A stretch of 64,000 nucleotides of DNA from Plicaturopsis crispa FD-325 SS-3 (Eukaryota > Basidiomycota > Agaricomycetes > Amylocorticiales > Amylocorticiaceae), in contig KN832557.1 in NCBI GenBank assembly GCA_000827205.1, positions 690,493-754,492 of the forward strand. The letters run 5' to 3'. Every line of letters starts with the position of its first letter. Positions within the stretch are counted from its first letter, which is position 1. A program made the position numbers and the translations under genes. This document shows, piece after piece, positions 1 to 11,001 of this stretch. Below the pieces are notes generated by a model that saw nothing but the letters and a program-made list of their open reading frames with translations, did not search any database and was not told the origin of the DNA.

Positions 1-643
1 CCGACGCGGATAGCAGCCACTCTAGTGTGCTAGGTATTGGTGTGCGGCGGATCGCCAGTTCGTATAGTGGAGGGGCGTAATACGACGGAGGTGGAGTTAC
101 GATTTCAGTGCTGTCAAGTCGGAGAATCTGGATGCTCGGCCAAACATGCAGCAACCGGTAGAGCAGCAGAGATTGGACATCAGCACCTGCTATATGCAGG
201 GCGCGCGGGCAGACAGAGATGCTTCGCAGGCCATCCATAACTGTGGAGGTAAAATCGAGGACGCCCGAAGAACGTAAAGTTAGTGCATGCAAGCGCGGGC
301 ATGCCGCAAGGATGCGAAGGAACGGCTGGAGATCAAGAGCGTGTTTCTGGCCGATGAGGGACACGTTCAGCTCGCGGACATACGCGCCAAGACGGTTGTA
401 GTTATACTCCAGCAGTGCCATATCTGGATCTCTTCCGGTGACGAGCTGTTCGTCGGCGCTGGTTCCAAGCGTGAAACGAATGGAGTGGAATAGCAAGCGT
501 TGGGCCGGGTCAGCCCACGAAGAGCATACCAAGGCGGCTGCGGAGAGCGTTCGAGCGTCTGGTTCCTTCCACCCCGGCGTTTTGTAGTACGCGTGCTCTA
601 GAATTGCCATGACAAGTTCTGTTGGCAGCGGTGCCGGTGCCAT
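1..643 (-). CDS. F-box-like protein, 3' end beyond window
   Basis: An uninterrupted reading frame of about 214 codons runs from an ATG at 643 down to base 1 without a stop, so the C-terminus lies outside the window. The N-terminus reads MAPAPLPTELVMAILEH and is followed by an ALVCSSWADPAQRLLFHSI segment. That is the usual 'LPxEl..iIl.h....l..lslVc.sW...a...LF.si' pattern of basidiomycete F-box-like proteins. The rest is a hydrophobic, leucine-rich stretch (CPRLHALTLRSSG, LLHVWPSIQILRLDS) as in their LRR-like tails. By family analogy it would be an SCF ubiquitin-ligase substrate adaptor; the substrate is unknown. No intron is needed in the visible part. Fungal F-box families are large, so the subfamily cannot be assigned. 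Confidence 0.75.
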   Translation of the reverse strand, partial: MAPAPLPTELVMAILEHAYYKTPGWKEPDARTLSAAALVCSSWADPAQRLLFHSIRFTLGTSADEQLVTGRDPDMALLEYNYNRLGAYVRELNVSLIGQKHALDLQPFLRILAACPRLHALTLRSSGVLDFTSTVMDGLRSISVCPRALHIAGADVQSLLLYRLLHVWPSIQILRLDSTEIVTPPPSYYAPPLYELAIRRTPIPSTLEWLLSAS

Positions 644-2186
644 GATACTTTGTACTATCAGGTAGTACCAGCTAGGTCACCTAGCAGTGCAGACATAAGG
701 GGAGTCATTTTACGGAAACTTGGCGTCAAAACCTACTTGTGCCCAGATGCCAAAGGCTGTATCAACGGCGGAAGAAAGGGCAACAATTGCTGAAGCGTTG
801 ACATGCAGGTTGAGTTAGGTTTTATACGGTGGACTGCGCGAGAAATCATGCTCATGTACGCGACTCGTCGGGGTCTATAGCACCCGCTGCGGCAGGAGTT
901 GCAAACGAGATCAGTCGTGATTTTCTTGCACCTCCGATTCTTCATCATTTTCCTTGGTCTCTTCGCAGACCTGTGCAAGATGTCTGTAACTACATGCCTG
1001 TATTTTTTCGAGGCGAAAGAACTATTGGTTGTGTCTAAGAAAATAGAACGGTGTTGAACCTGCAAATTCGGTTACACCGGACACGGAGTTGCAAAATGCC
1101 GCCGCGCCATGTTTCCGCGCGCTCGCCGAGGCACCAATGTTGCAACACCATGGTTTTGCAGATGCTACAACACATATTCAATATATTAACGGCTACCATA
1201 GGAGAATAGCGTGATGAACCATCGATACTGCACTTTTTTCCGGAGAAAGAGTGTACGTTGGCAGGACAGATAGCCTAAGACACGGTTTTGCAAAACCGGG
1301 GTACAGACGTATCTTGCTCAATAACGACCTTCCGCTTGCACTTTTCTCTATTCTAAGTCGATAGGCATATTGGATAGACCCTAAAGGACCCCTGTACAGG
1401 ATATATAGCTGAAAGGTTGAGGTGGAAGAGAGTTATGAATTTATTTCGAGGATTTGCAAGCCAATGTACCGTTTGCAACTCCCTGTCTAAGATAGTACAT
1501 AACTACTACCGTGACTAGCTGCGGCCCCGGAGCAGCAGAACTTGGTCTCTCGACGGCCGACCACCTGGACAATCCGGAGTGCAACATAAACGCTATATTT
1601 GCCTGTGAACTGCGAAAGCATTCCTTCACAACTTCTTGACAAATCCTTGGCAAAGGACGCCGTTGAGTATCATAACCTCGCGCTTGAGTCGCGGAGGGCA
1701 ATTTCGGCGCTGTGAGGATGTGCGTAGGTCAACTTCCTCTGAGTGTAGGTCGCTTGAATTCGCTCCGTATGTCAGTGCATTCCTCAACAACGAGGACATA
1801 TTCTGGAGGTGAGCATCCTTGGACGCCCTTTAATCCAAGGGTTATTGATCGACATCGTATGTAGAAACGATTCAATGACAGTGCTCGACTTAACAGCCTT
1901 AGCAGACATGGCATGACCCACGCAGTGATCGACCGCTACAAGTGCGCCTCAGATTCCTGTGCATCGGAGGCTCTGGAGTCCTTTGACGATCGCATAAAGA
2001 AGCAACACATGATACGTATCCCGAAAAGCAAAGACTTTCTCAGACCACGAGTGTCTTGGACCTCTTCCTCATGAGACCCATGATGACTTACCCGTGACCG
2101 CCACACCTGACCGCACCGAAGGGGCCGACGACCATAAATGCAGTATTCCCGCCCTGCAAGCTGACCGACCAATTCCCACATCCAAC
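644..2186. other. Intergenic region upstream of the dehydrogenase gene
   Basis: I find no convincing gene in this 1.5 kb. The divergent promoters of the F-box gene (left) and the dehydrogenase (right) must lie here. An 18 nt block at 1804-1821 recurs in reverse complement at 35934-35951, just 5' of a dehydrogenase relic. This suggests it belongs to the old upstream region of the dehydrogenase. Short open frames are present but lack recognisable domains or codon bias. Confidence 0.5.
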
Positions 2187-5100
2187 ATGCCATCTACCAT
2201 GCGTGCAGTTGTCTACGAGAAGCCATTCAAGGTCTCTGTCCAACAGGTCGAGCGGCCGAAGATCACCCACCCCGATGATATTATCGTCAAAGGTCGGTCC
2301 GCATCGTTTCTGACGACATTATGTGCCCCCTGAATGCACTCATGTAGTGACGACGACTTGTGTTTGTGGAAGGTGAGATGCAATGTCTTTGAAAACCTAA
2401 CATCTACTAAGAAACTTTCCACAGCGATCTGCATATGTATGAGGGCCGAACGGCCGCCCAATCAGGAATTGTATTCGGGCACGAGAAGTATGGCGAAATC
2501 CCCTCAATCGTCAGTATGGCTGACCATTTCGCCACTCCAGCATGGGCATAGTCTCCGTAAGCCTTACATCGAGATCGGACCACCATCATCAAATCCGGCA
2601 CCCCAAGGACCCCGACACCTCACGGCGCAAAAACGCGTCCTCAGGCAACAAACTACGCATACATAACATACTAGCTTATAGAATATACCTCCTCAGCATC
2701 TAGAGACTGGATGAGTGCCTTTTCGCGCCGCCAGCCAGGGGCGGAGGAGTCTGGAGCAAAATCGCTAGGTCAAAACCAGCATCCCGACAAGGGAAAGGAC
2801 CCCGCGCACCGTACACGCGCGTCTGGCGCCTCAGGTGGCTCAGATGGCGCAGACTCGAGCTTGCCTAGCGTCGAGGATGCTAGAGAGTATTTGGAATCTA
2901 TATCGATGACCCCAATCGGCGAGGAGTACACGGTGTCGTCTATATGCACCATTCTCCTTCATTTAGCGACGTCCGCCACCCCCAAAAGTTCGCCGGTCAA
3001 AATGGCCCAAGGCATCAAATCTGCCGTCGCCGTTTTGCGCGACACCGACAAGAAGAACATGATAGTCGACATCACTTCCGCAATCAAAGCCGATTTCCTC
3101 ACAACACTCAAACCACTCCGCGACGCCATTTCCCTGACCGAAGACAACGCCGAATCGCTCAGCAGCACCGCCTCGACACTCGCGAACACCCTAGAGGAAC
3201 ACAGAGAACGCCAGGACAGTCTCCACGACAAAATCACCACCGCCACGAACAAGATGGAGAAGAAGATCCTCGGCGCAGGCGCAGACATCTCGGCGCACGT
3301 CACGAACATCACAAGTAAGGAAATCACGAAGATCGCGGAGGCGTCAACATGCCTCGAGAAGAACGCCACGCTCACTTATCGTGACGCGCTTACCGGCGGG
3401 CCCAACCCAAGACCAGCGGACATCCCCTCTTCCGACTATGCGGCCCGGCGCGCTCGGGAAAGGGAGATCGCTAGGGCTCGCCAGCTCCTCATCGACGTAC
3501 CGGAGGGTGCAGCTGCCGAGGCAATAGGCAAGCTCACCCACAAGGAACTCGTGGATAAGGCGAACGGCGCGCTAGCGAGCATGGGCACAGATGAGTCCTC
3601 CATATTCTCTTTCCGCAGTGCTTCGCGCCTCGAGAACGGAGGCCTCCTGTTTGAATTGTCGTCAGCGGAGGCCTCTGAATGGCTTCGTGTAGCCGAGCGC
3701 AAGGAGGAATTCCTACGGAACTTCCAGCCTTCGAGCGTTCTCAAGGAACGCTACTACACGGCCATGGCCTCTTTTGTGCCACTGACGTTCAAACCCGAGC
3801 TCGACACCGAGCTCCGCGAAGTCGAAAATATCAATGCGCTGCCTCAAGGGTCGCTAGTGAAAGCTCGCTGGGTCAAACCAAAGAACCGTAGAAGCCCGCA
3901 GCAAGTCTGCGGGCACCTCATGCTGACATTCTCCTCCCCAAATCCCGCCAACCAGGTACTCGCACACGGCCTCTTCATCGACCAGAAGAAGGTCTACGCC
4001 AAGAAAGTGCGCAAGGAGCCCATCCGGTGCCTGAAATGCCAGCGATACGGACACATGGTCGCCCAGTGCTCGGCGGCGGAGGATATCTGTGGTACGTGTG
4101 GACGCAGCGGACACCGCTCGACGGAGTGCACAGCCCGTTCGACGCGTTACTGCGCATCATGTCGCGATGAATCCCACTCGAGCTGGGACAGGGACTGTCC
4201 AGTATTCCAACAGCGATGCGACACTATCGACGCGCGATGCACTGAAAACAGGATGCCCTTCTACCCCACCGACGAGGCCTGGACCCAAGTGAGCGAACCG
4301 CCGAAAGCCCCTGCGTACCGTCGCCCGACACGGTCGCCATCGCCGGACCGCCGACGGGGCATGCAGCATACGCAGCAGACGACCCTCAACTTCGGCTCGC
4401 AGATCCCGGAGAGACACCGCCATAACTCCCCGGCCTACAACTGGGACTGGAATGCTGAGATGGACGCACACGGCTCCCAGCGCGCCCGAAACTAATGCCG
4501 GACATATCATCTCAACTACCGACCCGACTCAAGATCTGGCAACAAAACCTCAATAAATCCTCGAAAGCCCACTTCGACCTCATCAACTCTGCAGTGCACA
4601 AGGACTACGACATTCTCGCCATCCAGGAGCCTTATCTCGACTCGTTCGCGAACACCAAAGCCACTTCCAAATGGCGTGTAGTATATCCCTCTTCCCGCTT
4701 CGCCGACAAATCTACGGTACGTTCGGTGCTCCTGGTGAACACCCGTCTCAACACGAACCACTGGCGACAACTGTCCATACCTTCGAACGACGTCACGGCC
4801 CTTCAGCTATCAGGCGACTTCGGCAATATATCCATTATCAACATATACAACGACTGTACACACTCACGGACCCTCGAACTCCTCGATCGACACTTGACAG
4901 CAAACATGGCCGAGCTTCGACCCCGGGACGACGACCATATGATCTGGCTGGGAGATTTCAATCGGCATCACCCCCTCTGGGACGACCCGGTCACGAACAA
5001 CCACCTCTTCACGGCGGCTGCCCTGCGAGACGCCCAGAAACTAATTGAATTGGTGGCAGATCACGACATGGTCATGGCCCTCCCCGGGCGTACACCGACT

Positions 5101-8100
5101 CTCGAAGTTATGGCCACTAAGAACTGGACTCGCCCGGACAACGTTTGGTGCTCAGAGAACACTGCGGACTGCTTCATCGGGTGTAACACCGCCCCTCACT
5201 TGCGCGGACCTGGAACCGATCATGTCCCCATCATCAGCGTGCTCGACATCCCCATTCCACACTCCAAAACGGCCGACTCCTATAACTTCAGGATGACCGA
5301 CTGGAACGAATTTCGGGACGAACTCGAAGCCCGACTGGCGGAGATCGACGAGCCTCGCGCAATCATGACAGAGGAAGACTTCCAACGAGCGGCCAGAGGA
5401 CTGACAGAGGTCATTCAAGACACCATCCGCACCACGGTACCCATATCCAAGCAATGCCCACACTCGAAACGCTGGTGGAACAAGGCGCTCTCGGACCTGA
5501 AGTGGAAGAAGAACCGCCTAGAAAGCGACTCATACAAGAACCGCCGCCTTCCTGACCATCCCATCCACGAGGAGTGCCGACGCGTCCGAACCAAATACGG
5601 CGACGAAATCTTGCAGGCCAAGACCCAACACTGGACTGACTGGCTCGAAGACGCCACGGAGCGCGATATGTGGACTGCAAACCGTTACATCTCGAACCCT
5701 ACGGGCGACGGAGGTAAGACTAGGATCCCGACCCTGAAAGTAAAGCGCGCCGACGGCACAACCGAGGAAATCGCATCGAACGACAGCAAAAGCGACCAGT
5801 TCGCAAAGTCATTCTTTCCTCCGCCGCCGGCTCACTCTTCAGTCCCACCAGGCTTCGACTATCCTCCCGCAGTCGACACTGTGCGGGCCATCACAGCTGA
5901 GCAAATCCGTCGACATGTCGCAAAACTGGCCGGCCACAAAGCTCCGGGCATCGACGAAATCCCAAATATTGTCCTCAAGGAGTGTATTGAGCTGCTCATC
6001 GACTATCTCCTCCACCTATTCCAAGCCGTCTTCGCTCTCGACACCTACTACGCGCCCTGGCGGGACTTCATTACCGTCGTCCTACGGAAACCAGGCAAGC
6101 CCGACTACACCATCCCCAAAGCGTACCGCCCAATAGCGCTCCTCAACACCACGGCGAAACTCCTCACGTCTATCGTCACGGAACACTTGACGTACATATC
6201 CGAGAAGCACGGCATCCTCCCCAGCAATCACTTCGGAGGCAGACCCGGTCGCACAACCACCGACTCGATGCAGCTAATCGTACAGAAAATCAAGGATGCG
6301 TGGCGCACGAAGAAAGTGGTCTCGATCCTCTTCCAGGACATCGAAGGGGCCTTTCCAAACGCAGTGAAGGACCGGCTGCTACACAACATGCGCAAGCGGG
6401 GGATCCCTAGGGAGTACGTCAACTTTGTGGACAAGCTGTTAACGGGTCGGCGCACCAAACTCAAATTCGACGACTACACCTCGTTCTGGATAGCAATACT
6501 CAACGGGATCGGCCAAGGCGACCCCATATCCATGATCGTATTCATCTTCTTCAATGCGGACATCCTCGACATTGTGAACTCCCGAGATGAGAGCGCCACA
6601 GCCTTCGTCGACGACACGGCAATCATCGCAGTCGGGAAGAGCTTCACCGAGACCCATGCCAAGTTGGACGATATGATGGACCGACCGAACGGATGCTATG
6701 ACTGGTCGGACGACCACAACTCCAGGTTCGAGACCAACAAGTTTGCACTCGTCGACTTCTCGAAACGAAAGATCCCCGACCCTCAAAATCCAAAAAAGCT
6801 CGTACCCGAAGAACGCCCACCGCTCACCATGTCCCGCAACGGCATAACACTCATCCCCGTCGAGTCCCACAAGTTCCTCGGCGTCCATTTCCACCAAGAA
6901 CTATCCTGGCGGGAACAAGTCAGCAAAGTGGTCGGAACGACAACCAAATGGACGCTCAACTTCAGACGTCTGTCTCGCCCATCCACGGGCATCCCTATGC
7001 GCTATATGAGCCAGATGTACAACGCGGTTGTCGTGCCCAAGATGACTTACGCGGCGGACATCTGGTTCACCCCGATCCACAAGACGTCCGAGGACTCTGA
7101 CCGGCTCAGTGGCTCGGTCTGGGCGGTCAAGGAGCTGGAGAAGGTGCAGCGCATAGCGGCTCTGGCCATCACGGGGGCGATGCGCACGACGGCAAGTGAC
7201 ACGTTGAATATGTTAGCGAACTTACTCCCCGTTCGTTTTATGCTAGACAAGGCTTGTCATCGGGCCACGGTACGTATGGCAGCGCTCCCGGAAACCCATC
7301 CATTGTACAAAATCGTTCGTCGCACGGCAAAACGCTTCGTACATCACCACCGTTCCCCACTCCACTATCTCTTCCACATCTACAACATCGACCCCACACA
7401 CATCGAAACTATACACCCAGTGCGTATAGCGCCGGATTACGCTCGCTCGTTCAACACGTTCGTAGCTTCCTCCAGGGACGAGACAGCGACCAACGACACG
7501 TCAGCGAATGCCAGGTTCAGAGTATACACTGACGGCTCAGGCCTCGAAGGGCAAGTCGGCGCAGCGGCAATTCTCATGCGCGATGGACAGGTCATCGACA
7601 AACTCCACCATCACCTCGGCCCGTCAACACGTCACAACACATTCGAAGGGGAGGCAGTGGGAGTCTCCCTCGGACTCGAACTCCTCCGACACACTGCGAA
7701 CGTCGACGGGCTCGTCCTACTCAGCCTCGACAACACGTCAGTCATCACGACGGCCGACAATATAAAAGCCAAAGCCGGCCAATGGATATTCGACGCCATA
7801 CTCAAGCAGGCCGACGCGATCAAGCGGCACGCAGGCCCCGACTATAGATTGGAGATCAGGTGGGTATCGGGGCATACAGGGATTGAAGGTAACGAGCTGG
7901 TGGATGAAGAAGCGAAGGAGGCAGCACGGGGGAAAAAGAGTGGCACACGACGCCTCCCAGAGCATCTGCGTGGGCGAGAGATCCCCACCAGCACGTCCGC
8001 GCTGAAACAGGAGTTCGCAGCGGAGCTCAAAGCGCGCTGGAGAGAACAGTGGACGGAGTCGCCCAGATATGCACGACAGAACGCCATCGACGAATCGCTC

Positions 8101-10729
8101 CCCTCCCCGAAATTCCAACGACTCACCCGAGACCTTGCGAGACGACACGTCAGCACCCTCACACATCTCCGCACGGGCCACGTTGGCCTCAACCAACACC
8201 TTCACCGCATTCAGCGCGCAGACTCGGAGCTTTGCCCAACATGCAAGGAAGTACCGGAGACGGTACACCACTTCCTCTTTGAATGCCCGACATATCACCA
8301 TGAGCGATTCATGCTAGAGCGAGAACTGGGACGCGATGCGTCGTCCTTATCCTATTTGCACACGACTCGCCGCGGCATAAAGGCACTCCTCAAATACGTT
8401 CACGCGACAGGCCGACTGAAACCCACATTCGGTGACGTCTCTCCCCCAGAAAGCTACAACAACGAAGATAACGACCACAATGTTTAGATTCTCGCAAGAC
8501 TCAAATCACGAACCGAACAATCTGAACAAACTAGGTGATGTCCTCAGCACTCTACGCAACGACAGAGCGGTTGAAGCACTCGAATTTTGACAACAGATCC
8601 ACGACACGACAAGACGATCTCACAACTACAATAATTCAAACCATAATCGGCTCGCTCTCGAGAGGGCTTTCGGGTTGCGCCTCGGCGCGGGGACTTCCAG
8701 GACGGGTTGAAGGGACGAGACGGTTGCAGAGTTCTTATCATTTTTCCTTTCCTTTCACCTCCGCGCGCGCGGCTTCCTCTCGTGTCTACGCTGCTTGCAG
8801 CGTCGGGCACTTAACCGACAGACACACGACCAGAACACACACACCATCCGATGGAAGCACGCGACATCCCCCCACGTATATATACGAGGTGGCACAAACG
8901 GTCCTGGGAACGGCCGGGCGGGTTTGTGGGTGTGGCGCGTTTGGGCTTCGTGCCCTCTCGTAGCTGAATCTCGCGGCTCAGCGCAGTTGTCACTCGTCGG
9001 GGCGGAGGTTTTGAGACAATGGGGTCTCATTTGGCACTACTCATGTAATGACTACTATGGGGCTCTGCCCTGTCGGTCAATAACTTAACATCAAAAAACA
9101 AAAAAAAAAAAAGACCTTACATCAAAAAGCATGGCCTGAATGCTGATGTTTGAACGCTAGGACGTTGGCGATGGTGTCACTGTCAGTATCTGCACCTACG
9201 AGCCATTGCTATCTTTGTTTACAAGACGATATAGTTGCTTAAACGCGGTGACCGTGTCGTGATGCCCTTCAATGTCGCATGCGGTCGATGCCTCAATTGC
9301 GAGAGTGGCAAATCGGCGTTCTGCACACATGTAAATCCAGGATTCGTAAGTCAGACAAGGTTCATTTGTGTTCTTTTTCTGACCCCTCTCAATAGGCTGG
9401 AGGGTAAGTGCCTCCTTAATCCGATATAGGTCAACTCAGTATTTACCAAGTTGAAAGTGCTTACGGGTATGTGGCTATGGGACCTTACCAAGGCGGGCAA
9501 GCGGTAAGAGAAACTCTGATCTAAGATTCCTGGATGCTTACATTAATGAACGTCAATCAGGAATATGTGAAAGTACCTTTCGCGGATTTCAATGCGCTCA
9601 AGCTGCCCCCGGGCACTCAGCACGAGGAGGATTTTGCATTGCTCGCAGGTATGTACTTCACCAAGAAGAATTCTTGCGGAGAATTACTGTATTGACTGAA
9701 CATCTCCGTTCGCCTCGACGAAGATATCTTTCCCACTGGATGGCACGGCGTTGAACTATCTGTACGTGCTGAGGCCGCCTGTTGTGTGTTTAACCTACTA
9801 CTTATGCTTCTCCACGCATGCAACACAGGGATTCCGACCCGGCGAATCTGTTGCAGTCTTCGGCGCCGGTACGCTGAACACGTCCTTTGAGTGTATTTCC
9901 TGAAACTTATGGAGTCGTTCCATAGGTCCTGTCGGTCTCATGGCTGCATACTCTGCGGTCCTACGGGGCGCTTCCGAAGTATACGTGATTGACCGCGTTC
10001 CGGAACGCCTTGCCAAGGCAAAGGAGATTGGGTGTACGCCCATCGATTTTTCAAAGGGAGATCCGGCAGAGCAGATAAAGGCACTGCGTGGAGGGTACGT
10101 CGCATCCCTTTCTCTGGCGGTACCTGCGATAACAGGGGTGACACAGGAAGGAGGTCGATCGTGGGGTTGACGGTAACCATCTCCGCCCCTTTCTTAGCCC
10201 GTAGATCTAACAAAGGTTTGCGATGCAGCTGTTGGGTATCAGGCTACATCAGCGGACGGAAAGACCGAGAAACCCAACATCGTTTTGGAGGGTCTGATCT
10301 CCGTCGTTCGTCCCACCGGAGGCTTGGGGATCCCCGGGTTGTATGTCCCAAGTGACCCGGGTGCGCCAGATTCTGCAGCCGCCAAGTCAGTGTCTCCCAT
10401 GATTTCCCGATTGCAGTGCAATGCTGACCTTAGTGTTCACAGGGGATACATCTCGTTCCCCTTCGGCAAATTGTTTGAGAAAGGCTTGACCATCGGCACT
10501 GGCGAGTGCAATGTCAAGGTCGGTCTTTCAACTTGCGTCTCGATTTTGAGCTCGTTCTGACGTGTCTATGCAGTCCTACAATCGCTACCTTCGTGACTTG
10601 ATTATCGCTGGCCGTGCCAAACCTTCCTTTGTGGTCTCGCACAACCTCCCCCTCGACGAAGCTGCGGCCGCGTACGACAAGTTCGATCGGCGCGTCGATG
10701 GTTACACCAAGGTGCTCTTGCACCCTTGA
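2187..10729 (+). CDS. Zinc-containing alcohol/formaldehyde dehydrogenase split by a LINE
   Basis: Sixteen exons give a continuous 381-residue protein: 2187-2292, 2348-2372, 2425-2487, 2541-2556, 9161-9181, 9235-9345, 9396-9403, 9458-9503, 9561-9648, 9724-9761, 9829-9868, 9926-10094, 10147-10172, 10229-10385, 10443-10518, 10574-10729. It matches the medium-chain zinc dehydrogenase family related to glutathione-independent formaldehyde dehydrogenase. Visible motifs are CVCGSDLHMYEG and FGHENMG (catalytic zinc), four structural-zinc cysteines in CGRCLNCESGKSAFC, and the NAD-binding GAGPVGLMAAYS. Expected role is NAD-dependent oxidation of small alcohols or aldehydes in the cytosol. Intron 4 (2557-9160) is 6604 nt because a LINE lies inside it; without the LINE it would be 51 nt. 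Exon 7 is only 8 nt. The coding part is undamaged, but correct splicing across 6.6 kb is doubtful in a fungus, so the allele may be silent. Confidence 0.88.
2562..2570. repeat. Left target-site duplication of the LINE
   Basis: The 9 bp CCTTACATC directly after the GTAAG donor of dehydrogenase intron 4 is repeated at the 3' end of the LINE. This is the expected product of target-primed reverse transcription. Confidence 0.85.
2711..4495 (+). CDS. LINE ORF1, zinc-knuckle nucleic-acid-binding protein
   Basis: This 594-residue protein is the presumed RNA-binding component of the LINE ribonucleoprotein. The N-terminus is polar and low-complexity. Roughly residues 110-210 contain a heptad-like, probably coiled-coil stretch (SLTEDNAESLSSTASTLANT), which may support oligomerisation. 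Three cysteine-histidine knuckles follow: CLKCQRYGHMVAQC (about 440-453), CGTCGRSGHRSTEC (about 460-473) and a longer variant CASCRDESHSSWDRDC (about 481-496). The C-terminus is proline- and arginine-rich. The frame is intact. Its TAA stop overlaps the ORF2 ATG by one base (TAATG), so ORF2 may be translated by termination-reinitiation as reported for some insect LINEs. The ATG at 2711 is the first long-frame start after the 140 bp leader. Confidence 0.9.
   Translation: MSAFSRRQPGAEESGAKSLGQNQHPDKGKDPAHRTRASGASGGSDGADSSLPSVEDAREYLESISMTPIGEEYTVSSICTILLHLATSATPKSSPVKMAQGIKSAVAVLRDTDKKNMIVDITSAIKADFLTTLKPLRDAISLTEDNAESLSSTASTLANTLEEHRERQDSLHDKITTATNKMEKKILGAGADISAHVTNITSKEITKIAEASTCLEKNATLTYRDALTGGPNPRPADIPSSDYAARRAREREIARARQLLIDVPEGAAAEAIGKLTHKELVDKANGALASMGTDESSIFSFRSASRLENGGLLFELSSAEASEWLRVAERKEEFLRNFQPSSVLKERYYTAMASFVPLTFKPELDTELREVENINALPQGSLVKARWVKPKNRRSPQQVCGHLMLTFSSPNPANQVLAHGLFIDQKKVYAKKVRKEPIRCLKCQRYGHMVAQCSAAEDICGTCGRSGHRSTECTARSTRYCASCRDESHSSWDRDCPVFQQRCDTIDARCTENRMPFYPTDEAWTQVSEPPKAPAYRRPTRSPSPDRRRGMQHTQQTTLNFGSQIPERHRHNSPAYNWDWNAEMDAHGSQRARN
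4495..8487 (+). CDS. LINE ORF2: endonuclease, reverse transcriptase, RNase H
   Basis: This is an intact 1330-residue polyprotein. Residues about 10-260 form an apurinic-like endonuclease (LAIQEPYLDS, WLGDFNRHHPLW, GPGTDHVPII), which nicks the target. Residues about 500-770 form the reverse transcriptase. Its first catalytic aspartate is in FQDIEGAFPN (about 615), followed by GIGQGDPIS, and the catalytic box is FVDD at 704-707 rather than the commoner YADD. RNase H spans about 1005-1140, with the acidic residues of TDGSG (about 1013), EGEAVG, LDNTS and ELVDEEAKE, plus GHTGIEGNELVD. A C-terminal CPTCKEVPETVHHFLFEC motif (about 1247-1264) is the CCHC signature of I/Tad-type elements. No stops or frameshifts are present, so the protein could be active. 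The start overlaps the ORF1 stop. Confidence 0.95.
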   Translation: MPDISSQLPTRLKIWQQNLNKSSKAHFDLINSAVHKDYDILAIQEPYLDSFANTKATSKWRVVYPSSRFADKSTVRSVLLVNTRLNTNHWRQLSIPSNDVTALQLSGDFGNISIINIYNDCTHSRTLELLDRHLTANMAELRPRDDDHMIWLGDFNRHHPLWDDPVTNNHLFTAAALRDAQKLIELVADHDMVMALPGRTPTLEVMATKNWTRPDNVWCSENTADCFIGCNTAPHLRGPGTDHVPIISVLDIPIPHSKTADSYNFRMTDWNEFRDELEARLAEIDEPRAIMTEEDFQRAARGLTEVIQDTIRTTVPISKQCPHSKRWWNKALSDLKWKKNRLESDSYKNRRLPDHPIHEECRRVRTKYGDEILQAKTQHWTDWLEDATERDMWTANRYISNPTGDGGKTRIPTLKVKRADGTTEEIASNDSKSDQFAKSFFPPPPAHSSVPPGFDYPPAVDTVRAITAEQIRRHVAKLAGHKAPGIDEIPNIVLKECIELLIDYLLHLFQAVFALDTYYAPWRDFITVVLRKPGKPDYTIPKAYRPIALLNTTAKLLTSIVTEHLTYISEKHGILPSNHFGGRPGRTTTDSMQLIVQKIKDAWRTKKVVSILFQDIEGAFPNAVKDRLLHNMRKRGIPREYVNFVDKLLTGRRTKLKFDDYTSFWIAILNGIGQGDPISMIVFIFFNADILDIVNSRDESATAFVDDTAIIAVGKSFTETHAKLDDMMDRPNGCYDWSDDHNSRFETNKFALVDFSKRKIPDPQNPKKLVPEERPPLTMSRNGITLIPVESHKFLGVHFHQELSWREQVSKVVGTTTKWTLNFRRLSRPSTGIPMRYMSQMYNAVVVPKMTYAADIWFTPIHKTSEDSDRLSGSVWAVKELEKVQRIAALAITGAMRTTASDTLNMLANLLPVRFMLDKACHRATVRMAALPETHPLYKIVRRTAKRFVHHHRSPLHYLFHIYNIDPTHIETIHPVRIAPDYARSFNTFVASSRDETATNDTSANARFRVYTDGSGLEGQVGAAAILMRDGQVIDKLHHHLGPSTRHNTFEGEAVGVSLGLELLRHTANVDGLVLLSLDNTSVITTADNIKAKAGQWIFDAILKQADAIKRHAGPDYRLEIRWVSGHTGIEGNELVDEEAKEAARGKKSGTRRLPEHLRGREIPTSTSALKQEFAAELKARWREQWTESPRYARQNAIDESLPSPKFQRLTRDLARRHVSTLTHLRTGHVGLNQHLHRIQRADSELCPTCKEVPETVHHFLFECPTYHHERFMLERELGRDASSLSYLHTTRRGIKALLKYVHATGRLKPTFGDVSPPESYNNEDNDHNV
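8488..9114 (+). other. LINE 3' untranslated region and A-rich tail
   Basis: The 627 bp between the ORF2 stop and the target duplication contain no supported ORF. They end in an A-rich run (about 9093-9112, interrupted by a single C) and a short GA just before the duplicated CCTTACATC. A pyrimidine-rich, GC-rich stretch lies around 8700-8830. This is the template region expected to be recognised by the element's own reverse transcriptase. Confidence 0.75.
9115..9123. repeat. Right target-site duplication of the LINE
   Basis: The second copy of CCTTACATC follows the A-rich tail and leads straight into the remaining 37 nt of dehydrogenase intron 4. That remainder has a GCTGATG branch-like site and ends in CTAG at 9160. 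Confidence 0.85.
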
Positions 10730-11001
10730 TCGAGTGGCCCTTCATGCGCTTTGGTTCGGTCTTGAAGCTTGAAGGTCGGGCAATGGACCCCTTGACCGAG
10801 GTGTAAATGTAATTATACTGGTAACTGCGACGAGATTTCGATGTATTTTATGTACTATGTGACTGTATGCTAAACAAGCTTGAACGATGTTGGTCGGCAA
10901 TGGTCGCCGTCCGATATGTTGTTGTCGCAATCGTCGACACCAGGTCGACACGTCGACGGAGAGTTGAGTAACGAGTCTAGCAGTGACACTGGCGGTGGTT
11001 A

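Follow-up and report, generated by a model that had tools for sequence, protein, structure and literature searches.

A full-length LINE has inserted into a short intron of a dehydrogenase gene in the window, that is, the whole 64,000-nucleotide stretch of DNA that was analysed, and we regard this insertion as real with near certainty. The sequence-only reading had placed the LINE, in the sense orientation, in a pre-existing 51-nt intron of this gene that now extends from 2557 to 9160. All coordinates were confirmed, with identical duplications on both sides of the element, which occupies 2571-9114 on the host strand with ORF1 and ORF2 running in the same direction. The consequence for the host gene had been left open between knock-down, fusion and survival, and, largely by analogy, the evidence is here weighed towards loss or strong reduction as the likely outcome. 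The features concerned are the following:

2199..2556, + strand: host exons 1-4 (94, 25, 63 and 16 nt) and introns 1-3 (55, 52 and 53 nt), from the spliced model and homology across the junction
2541..2556, + strand: exon 4, a 16-nt micro-exon which adjoins the insertion-bearing intron on its upstream side, from the spliced model
2557..9160, + strand: intron 4 in its present state, 6,604 nt, GTAAG..CTAG, from the spliced model
2562..2570, + strand: left 9-bp duplication, CCTTACATC, from sequence comparison
2571..9114, + strand: full-length, putatively Tad-like non-LTR retrotransposon of 6,544 bp in host-sense orientation, its ends matching the C7 sister copy
2571..2710, + strand: LINE 5′ UTR, containing a candidate 3′ splice site with its last base at 2644, from copy comparison and splice-site scoring
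2711..4495, + strand: LINE ORF1, 594 aa, an open frame
4495..8487, + strand: LINE ORF2, 1330 aa, with APE-type endonuclease, reverse transcriptase and RNase H, from domain search
8488..9114, + strand: LINE 3′ UTR and A-rich tail, from sequence and copy comparison
9115..9123, + strand: right 9-bp duplication, CCTTACATC, from sequence comparison
9124..9160, + strand: remainder of the original intron 4, including the branch-like GCTGATG and the CTAG 3′ splice site, from the spliced model (acceptor score: -0.3)
9161..10729, + strand: host exons 5-16 and introns 5-15 (50-75 nt), from the spliced model, PF08240, PF00107, PDB 4jlw and 1kol

The spliced model of the host gene (2199-10729, + strand) comprises 16 exons, which join in frame on either side of the LINE, as had been claimed, into a single 377-aa open reading frame with GT..AG borders at all 15 introns. 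The translated product scores above the cut-offs of both Pfam domains ADH_N (Bitscore: 85.3; cut-off: 23.5) and ADH_zinc_N (Bitscore: 48.7; cut-off: 31.8) and by its sequence is a zinc-dependent medium-chain dehydrogenase. The closest solved structures, PDB 4jlw and 1kol, are glutathione-independent formaldehyde dehydrogenases. The possibility that the exons flanking the LINE belong to two different genes was examined against these structures; residues 2-367 align to them in a single alignment, in which the exon 4-exon 5 junction is ungapped, showing that the flanking exons form one gene. Over this span the host protein is matched best by glutathione-independent formaldehyde dehydrogenase (4jlw, 1kol, TIGR02819), but the score with TIGR02819, the top NCBIfam model, lies below the equivalog cut-off (Bitscore: 364; cut-off: 636.95), and the naming therefore stops at 'formaldehyde dehydrogenase-like'. 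The host reading frame is free of lesions. Neither a second copy nor a second haplotype of the gene was found in the assembly using an approximate host protein query and a DNA search with positions 9124-10800, the sole match of the latter being its own locus.

The target-site duplication CCTTACATC, 9 bp in length, is identical at 2562-2570 and 9115-9123, placing the insertion point five bases into the original intron. Removal of the LINE and one copy of the duplication from intron 4 leaves 51 nt, while the 377-aa host frame stays open. An empty site lacking the LINE was not found in this assembly by a search allowing up to three mismatches in 29 bases. At the insertion point, the 5′ splice site and its neighbouring bases (2557-2567) form a perfect 11-nt palindrome, GTAAG-C-CTTAC, probably by chance.

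The claim that 51 nt is a typical intron length for this genome was borne out, both by the other 14 introns of the host gene (50-75 nt; median: 55 nt) and by genes of the Cpn60/TCP1 family. The latter yielded 37 matches in the genome, forming 10 gene-like clusters, eight of which contain more than one exon match, and all 27 exon gaps in these eight clusters are short (adjusted: 49-123 nt; largest raw gap: 176 nt). Intron 4 is thus 120 times the median length of the neighbouring introns and more than 35 times the largest raw Cpn60/TCP1 exon gap. A P450 search gave 107 individual exon matches, and the intron lengths come from the host gene and Cpn60/TCP1 only. Published mean intron lengths are of a similar order, at 77 nt for Tricholoma matsutake, a mushroom (PMC6980582), and 65 nt for Cryptococcus (PMC5851062), and intron definition has been proposed for basidiomycetes (PMC2397502).

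ORF1 of the element has no Pfam or NCBIfam match at an e-value of 0.001, while cysteine/histidine knuckle-like motifs can be seen by eye in its C-terminal region. The start of ORF2 overlaps the ORF1 stop as TAATG, and its translated product matches PF00078 (e-value: 2.7e-17), PF14529 (e-value: 1.8e-11) and PF03372 (e-value: 9.2e-07), with an RNase H domain (PF00075; residues 1008-1144; e-value: 1.1e-08) located behind the reverse transcriptase. In a structure-chain comparison, the reverse transcriptase matches L1 ORF2p and R2 chains. Both ends of the LINE were read by eye and carry no terminal repeats. Given a reverse transcriptase and endonuclease in one ORF, an A-rich tail and duplications of variable length, the element is classed as an APE-type non-LTR retrotransposon, and the ORF plan and RNase H point to a Tad-like clade, with Inkcap and Deceiver as further possible assignments. 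The ORF2 of the L1 clade lacks RNase H, and membership of this clade was ruled out on the presence of the domain.

Matches to ORF2 occur at 14 places in the assembly of 49 contigs, the window copy included. The highest amino acid identities are those of a copy on C7 (94%), a copy on C14 (75%) and a second match on C7 near 183 kb (43%), with the ten others weaker or shorter. The C7 sister copy (89% nucleotide identity over 6.1 kb) spans LINE positions 2 to 6542 of 6544, so that the ends of the LINE are not a guess, and is flanked by its own duplication of 9 (or 10) bp. The C14 copy is likewise full length, with its own duplication of 13 (or 14) bp, and shares 72-90% nucleotide identity in separate pieces. 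Its tail holds a stretch of 417 N, behind which lie over 50 A and the 13-bp duplication. ORF1 and ORF2 of the C7 and C14 copies are open in the pieces read, and ORF2 has no internal stop in the window, C7 or C14 copies, the TGA within the C14 match being the terminal stop. A search with the LINE 3′ end recovered at least three full copies (window, C7 and C14) and at least one 67-base piece on C2 (C2:3586085-3586151; 85% identical; near a TTTC repeat), which is perhaps the remnant of an older copy or of a non-autonomous derivative. Further LINE-type reverse transcriptase frames, at most 43% identical to ORF2, are found at C7:183223-187137, C18:23419, C18:361418, C37:20563 and C2:2520420; these are long open frames of 1291-1825 aa, and several LINE families seem to be present in the genome.

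At positions 6-44 of the LINE (2576-2614 in the window), the window copy and the distant C14 copy share 90% identity, with no blastn match between the two after position 44 up to position 862, whereas the C7 and window copies resemble each other closely along the entire 5′ UTR. A conserved 5′ UTR start would be in keeping with an internal promoter. On C7, the sister copy is neighboured by an SDR-like ORF (PF00106, just below the cut-off) and by an ORF whose LRR match is sub-threshold. There is no sign that intron targeting is a general rule for this LINE, as an intronic position is known for one copy of the three and the C7 copy does not lie in an evident intron.

The insertion looks young because the 5.8 kb of ORF contain no stop: none occurs at the 5,772 coding sites of the window LINE, with the chance of this being 0.03 at 2% and 0.18 at 1% neutral change (frameshifts not counted). 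Comparison of ORF2 between the window and C7 copies gave a dN of 0.030 and a dS of 0.63, suggesting that the two lineages parted long ago and evolved under protein selection, presumably while still jumping. The insertion is thus much younger than its split from any copy found in the assembly. Its parent copy is not visible there, since the nearest copy found is only 89% identical, and may be lost, unassembled or located in other strains. As the parent is missing here, other strains are predicted to carry it, and the site to be polymorphic. The nonsynonymous changes in ORF2 amount to 26 of the 162 classified on the window branch and 12 of the 128 on the C7 branch, a comparison of raw counts; the excess on the window branch could reflect some time without selection since the insertion, which argues against extreme youth.

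Splice sites were scored with a model trained on 21 introns, 14 from the host gene and seven from Cpn60/TCP1 genes, the latter chosen by a score that favours the consensus (17 exon gaps in six clusters gave eight introns above the score, of which one, 86 nt long, was judged unreliable and dropped). The native 3′ splice site of intron 4 scores -0.3. Of the 21 leave-one-out sites (range: -3.3 to 8.3), 19 exceed this value, one equals it and one falls below it, so that the native site is the second or third lowest of 22; where the training sites are scored with themselves included, it scores 0.0 and lies under all 22. The exon 4 donor scores 4.8, with four of the 21 training donors lower. A candidate 3′ splice site with a score of 6.8 and a CTCAC branch-like motif ends at 2644, 88 nt from the donor and 74 nt into the LINE. 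Along the LINE, 13 of 359 AGs score 6 or more, and 4.6% of start points have such a site with a branch-like motif within 35-120 nt. The strict branch motif CTRAY occurs in only 9 of 22 training introns, and branch-like motifs are as such weak evidence here. In the computed products, the protein stops in frame at 75 aa if exon 4 is joined to 2645 and at 114 aa if the intron is retained, while skipping of exon 4 would shift the frame, as this exon is 16 nt long. With a small and partly consensus-chosen training set, the scoring offers support for, but not proof of, failed splicing.

We propose that a Tad-like LINE inserted recently, at full length and in sense orientation, presumably by target-primed reverse transcription, and that the 6.6-kb intron would rarely or never be removed, because fungal spliceosomes of this kind would recognise and treat short introns as a unit. 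The exon 4 donor may then stay unspliced or be joined to a nearer 3′ splice site in the LINE 5′ UTR, with that at 2644 the best candidate. The host gene would be off or strongly reduced in the nuclei that carry the insertion, and transcription from the host promoter may run on into the LINE. It is probable, by analogy with other fungal introns, that the insertion disables the host gene or strongly lowers its expression. Weighing against this, the native 3′ site presumably worked before the insertion despite its low score, the host frame is free of the lesions expected in a long-dead gene, and seven of the 21 introns behind the splice-site model are consensus-biased.

A further reading, compatible with loss of the gene, is that the stalled intron triggers RNA interference in which small RNAs silence the LINE and the host gene together. 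The genome has 14 matches to the Piwi domain and 17 to that of RNA-dependent RNA polymerase, and in Cryptococcus the SCANR pathway of RNA interference is supplied by transposon transcripts that are spliced poorly (PMC5851062); a SCANR-like response on this analogy is rather unlikely. DNA-methylase domains have four matches in the genome.

It is unlikely that the host gene survives through removal of the whole 6.6-kb intron well enough to give useful normal mRNA. Both original splice sites, the branch-like GCTGATG and all 16 exons are intact, and the host frame has remained free of lesions, as survival would have it. However, the length of intron 4, at 120 times the neighbouring median and more than 35 times the largest raw Cpn60/TCP1 gap, the weakness of the native 3′ site and the presence of a better one close to the donor argue against it, and long or transposon-bearing fungal introns fail in published cases (PMC12136443).

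The site at 2644 could also act as a splice trap, in which exon 4 is spliced into the LINE 5′ UTR to yield capped LINE mRNAs and the LINE gains from its position. Few sites of this quality exist in the LINE, the ten bases preceding this one, 74 nt into the element, are unchanged in the C7 copy, and its AG is kept in the C14 copy. Agreement with C7 says little, however, since the C7 and window copies differ little anywhere in the 5′ UTR, while the surroundings of the site have changed in C14. Furthermore, just one copy of the three is known to sit in an intron, that on C7 lying between gene-like ORFs, and the trapped host frame would precede ORF1, making such a trap very unlikely. Highly unlikely, too, is the combination in which this splice site lets a sense insertion in a short intron take over the host promoter and first exons as a capped LINE leader while the stalled intron triggers RNA interference; were it true, element and host would contest the position, the former using it and the latter silencing it. 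An assembly error that put the LINE into an intact gene, for which the 49 contigs and the LINE relatives elsewhere in the assembly might speak, is extremely improbable and such a chimera was set aside, given the perfect duplication at both LINE ends, as in a real insertion, and the 11% divergence of the nearest sister copy found, which is too large for the two to have been misjoined.

Transposon insertions in fungal introns and the effects they have are already described (PMC12136443), and genes near transposable elements are repressed in another study, the main text of which does not contain the word 'intron' (PMC4905642). PMC3464208, PMC3411680 and PMC11649378 contributed no account of a comparable insertion. 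Among the papers listed by literature searches, none was recognised as dealing with this locus, which says little. The insertion is probably a disabling natural mutation of an ordinary kind, its neat points being the clean 51-nt empty site, the adjoining micro-exon and the missing parent. As a natural allele with clean ends and no second host copy, it provides a ready test of how far the fungal spliceosome can stretch a short intron, with a readable phenotype in dehydrogenase activity and perhaps formaldehyde tolerance. Recent activity of the LINE may furthermore be tracked with this locus as a marker.

Introns in human genes are long and for the most part exon-defined. Interference by human intronic L1 elements includes intron retention, exonization and cryptic polyadenylation (PMC3192792), and the same transcript outcomes are to be looked for here, where a LINE likewise lies in an intron, although the original intron is only 51 nt long. 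In its architecture, the element resembles LINE-Tad-like-RtPc5 of Paracoccidioides (5,905 bp; ORFs of 572 and 1312 aa), which also has two ORFs (here 594 and 1330 aa), an ORF2 encoding an endonuclease, reverse transcriptase and RNase H, an A-rich tail and an ORF1 without similarity to known families (PMC4427930). It differs from RtPc5 in its length of 6,544 bp and in the overlap of the ORF2 start with the ORF1 stop (TAATG). In Marasmius oreades, Inkcap- and Tad1-type LINE families with a single master copy in a nucleus still make new insertions (PMC9674265), and low copy number is consequently not an argument against activity. Transposition of the M. oreades elements was observed in cultures, whereas activity is here deduced from sequence, and the nearest copy has diverged too far to have been the parent. 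In fungal introns, a Ds transposon in the URA5 intron renders Cryptococcus ura-, and in S. pombe insertions of ~2.6 kb in the introns of essential genes are not tolerated, lengthened introns often remaining unspliced (PMC12136443). While Ds and Hermes were introduced DNA transposons under test, and the present element is a natural LINE with a predicted effect, the cases share a large element in a short fungal intron, and in the Ds/URA5 and S. pombe Hermes cases gene function was lost (PMC12136443).
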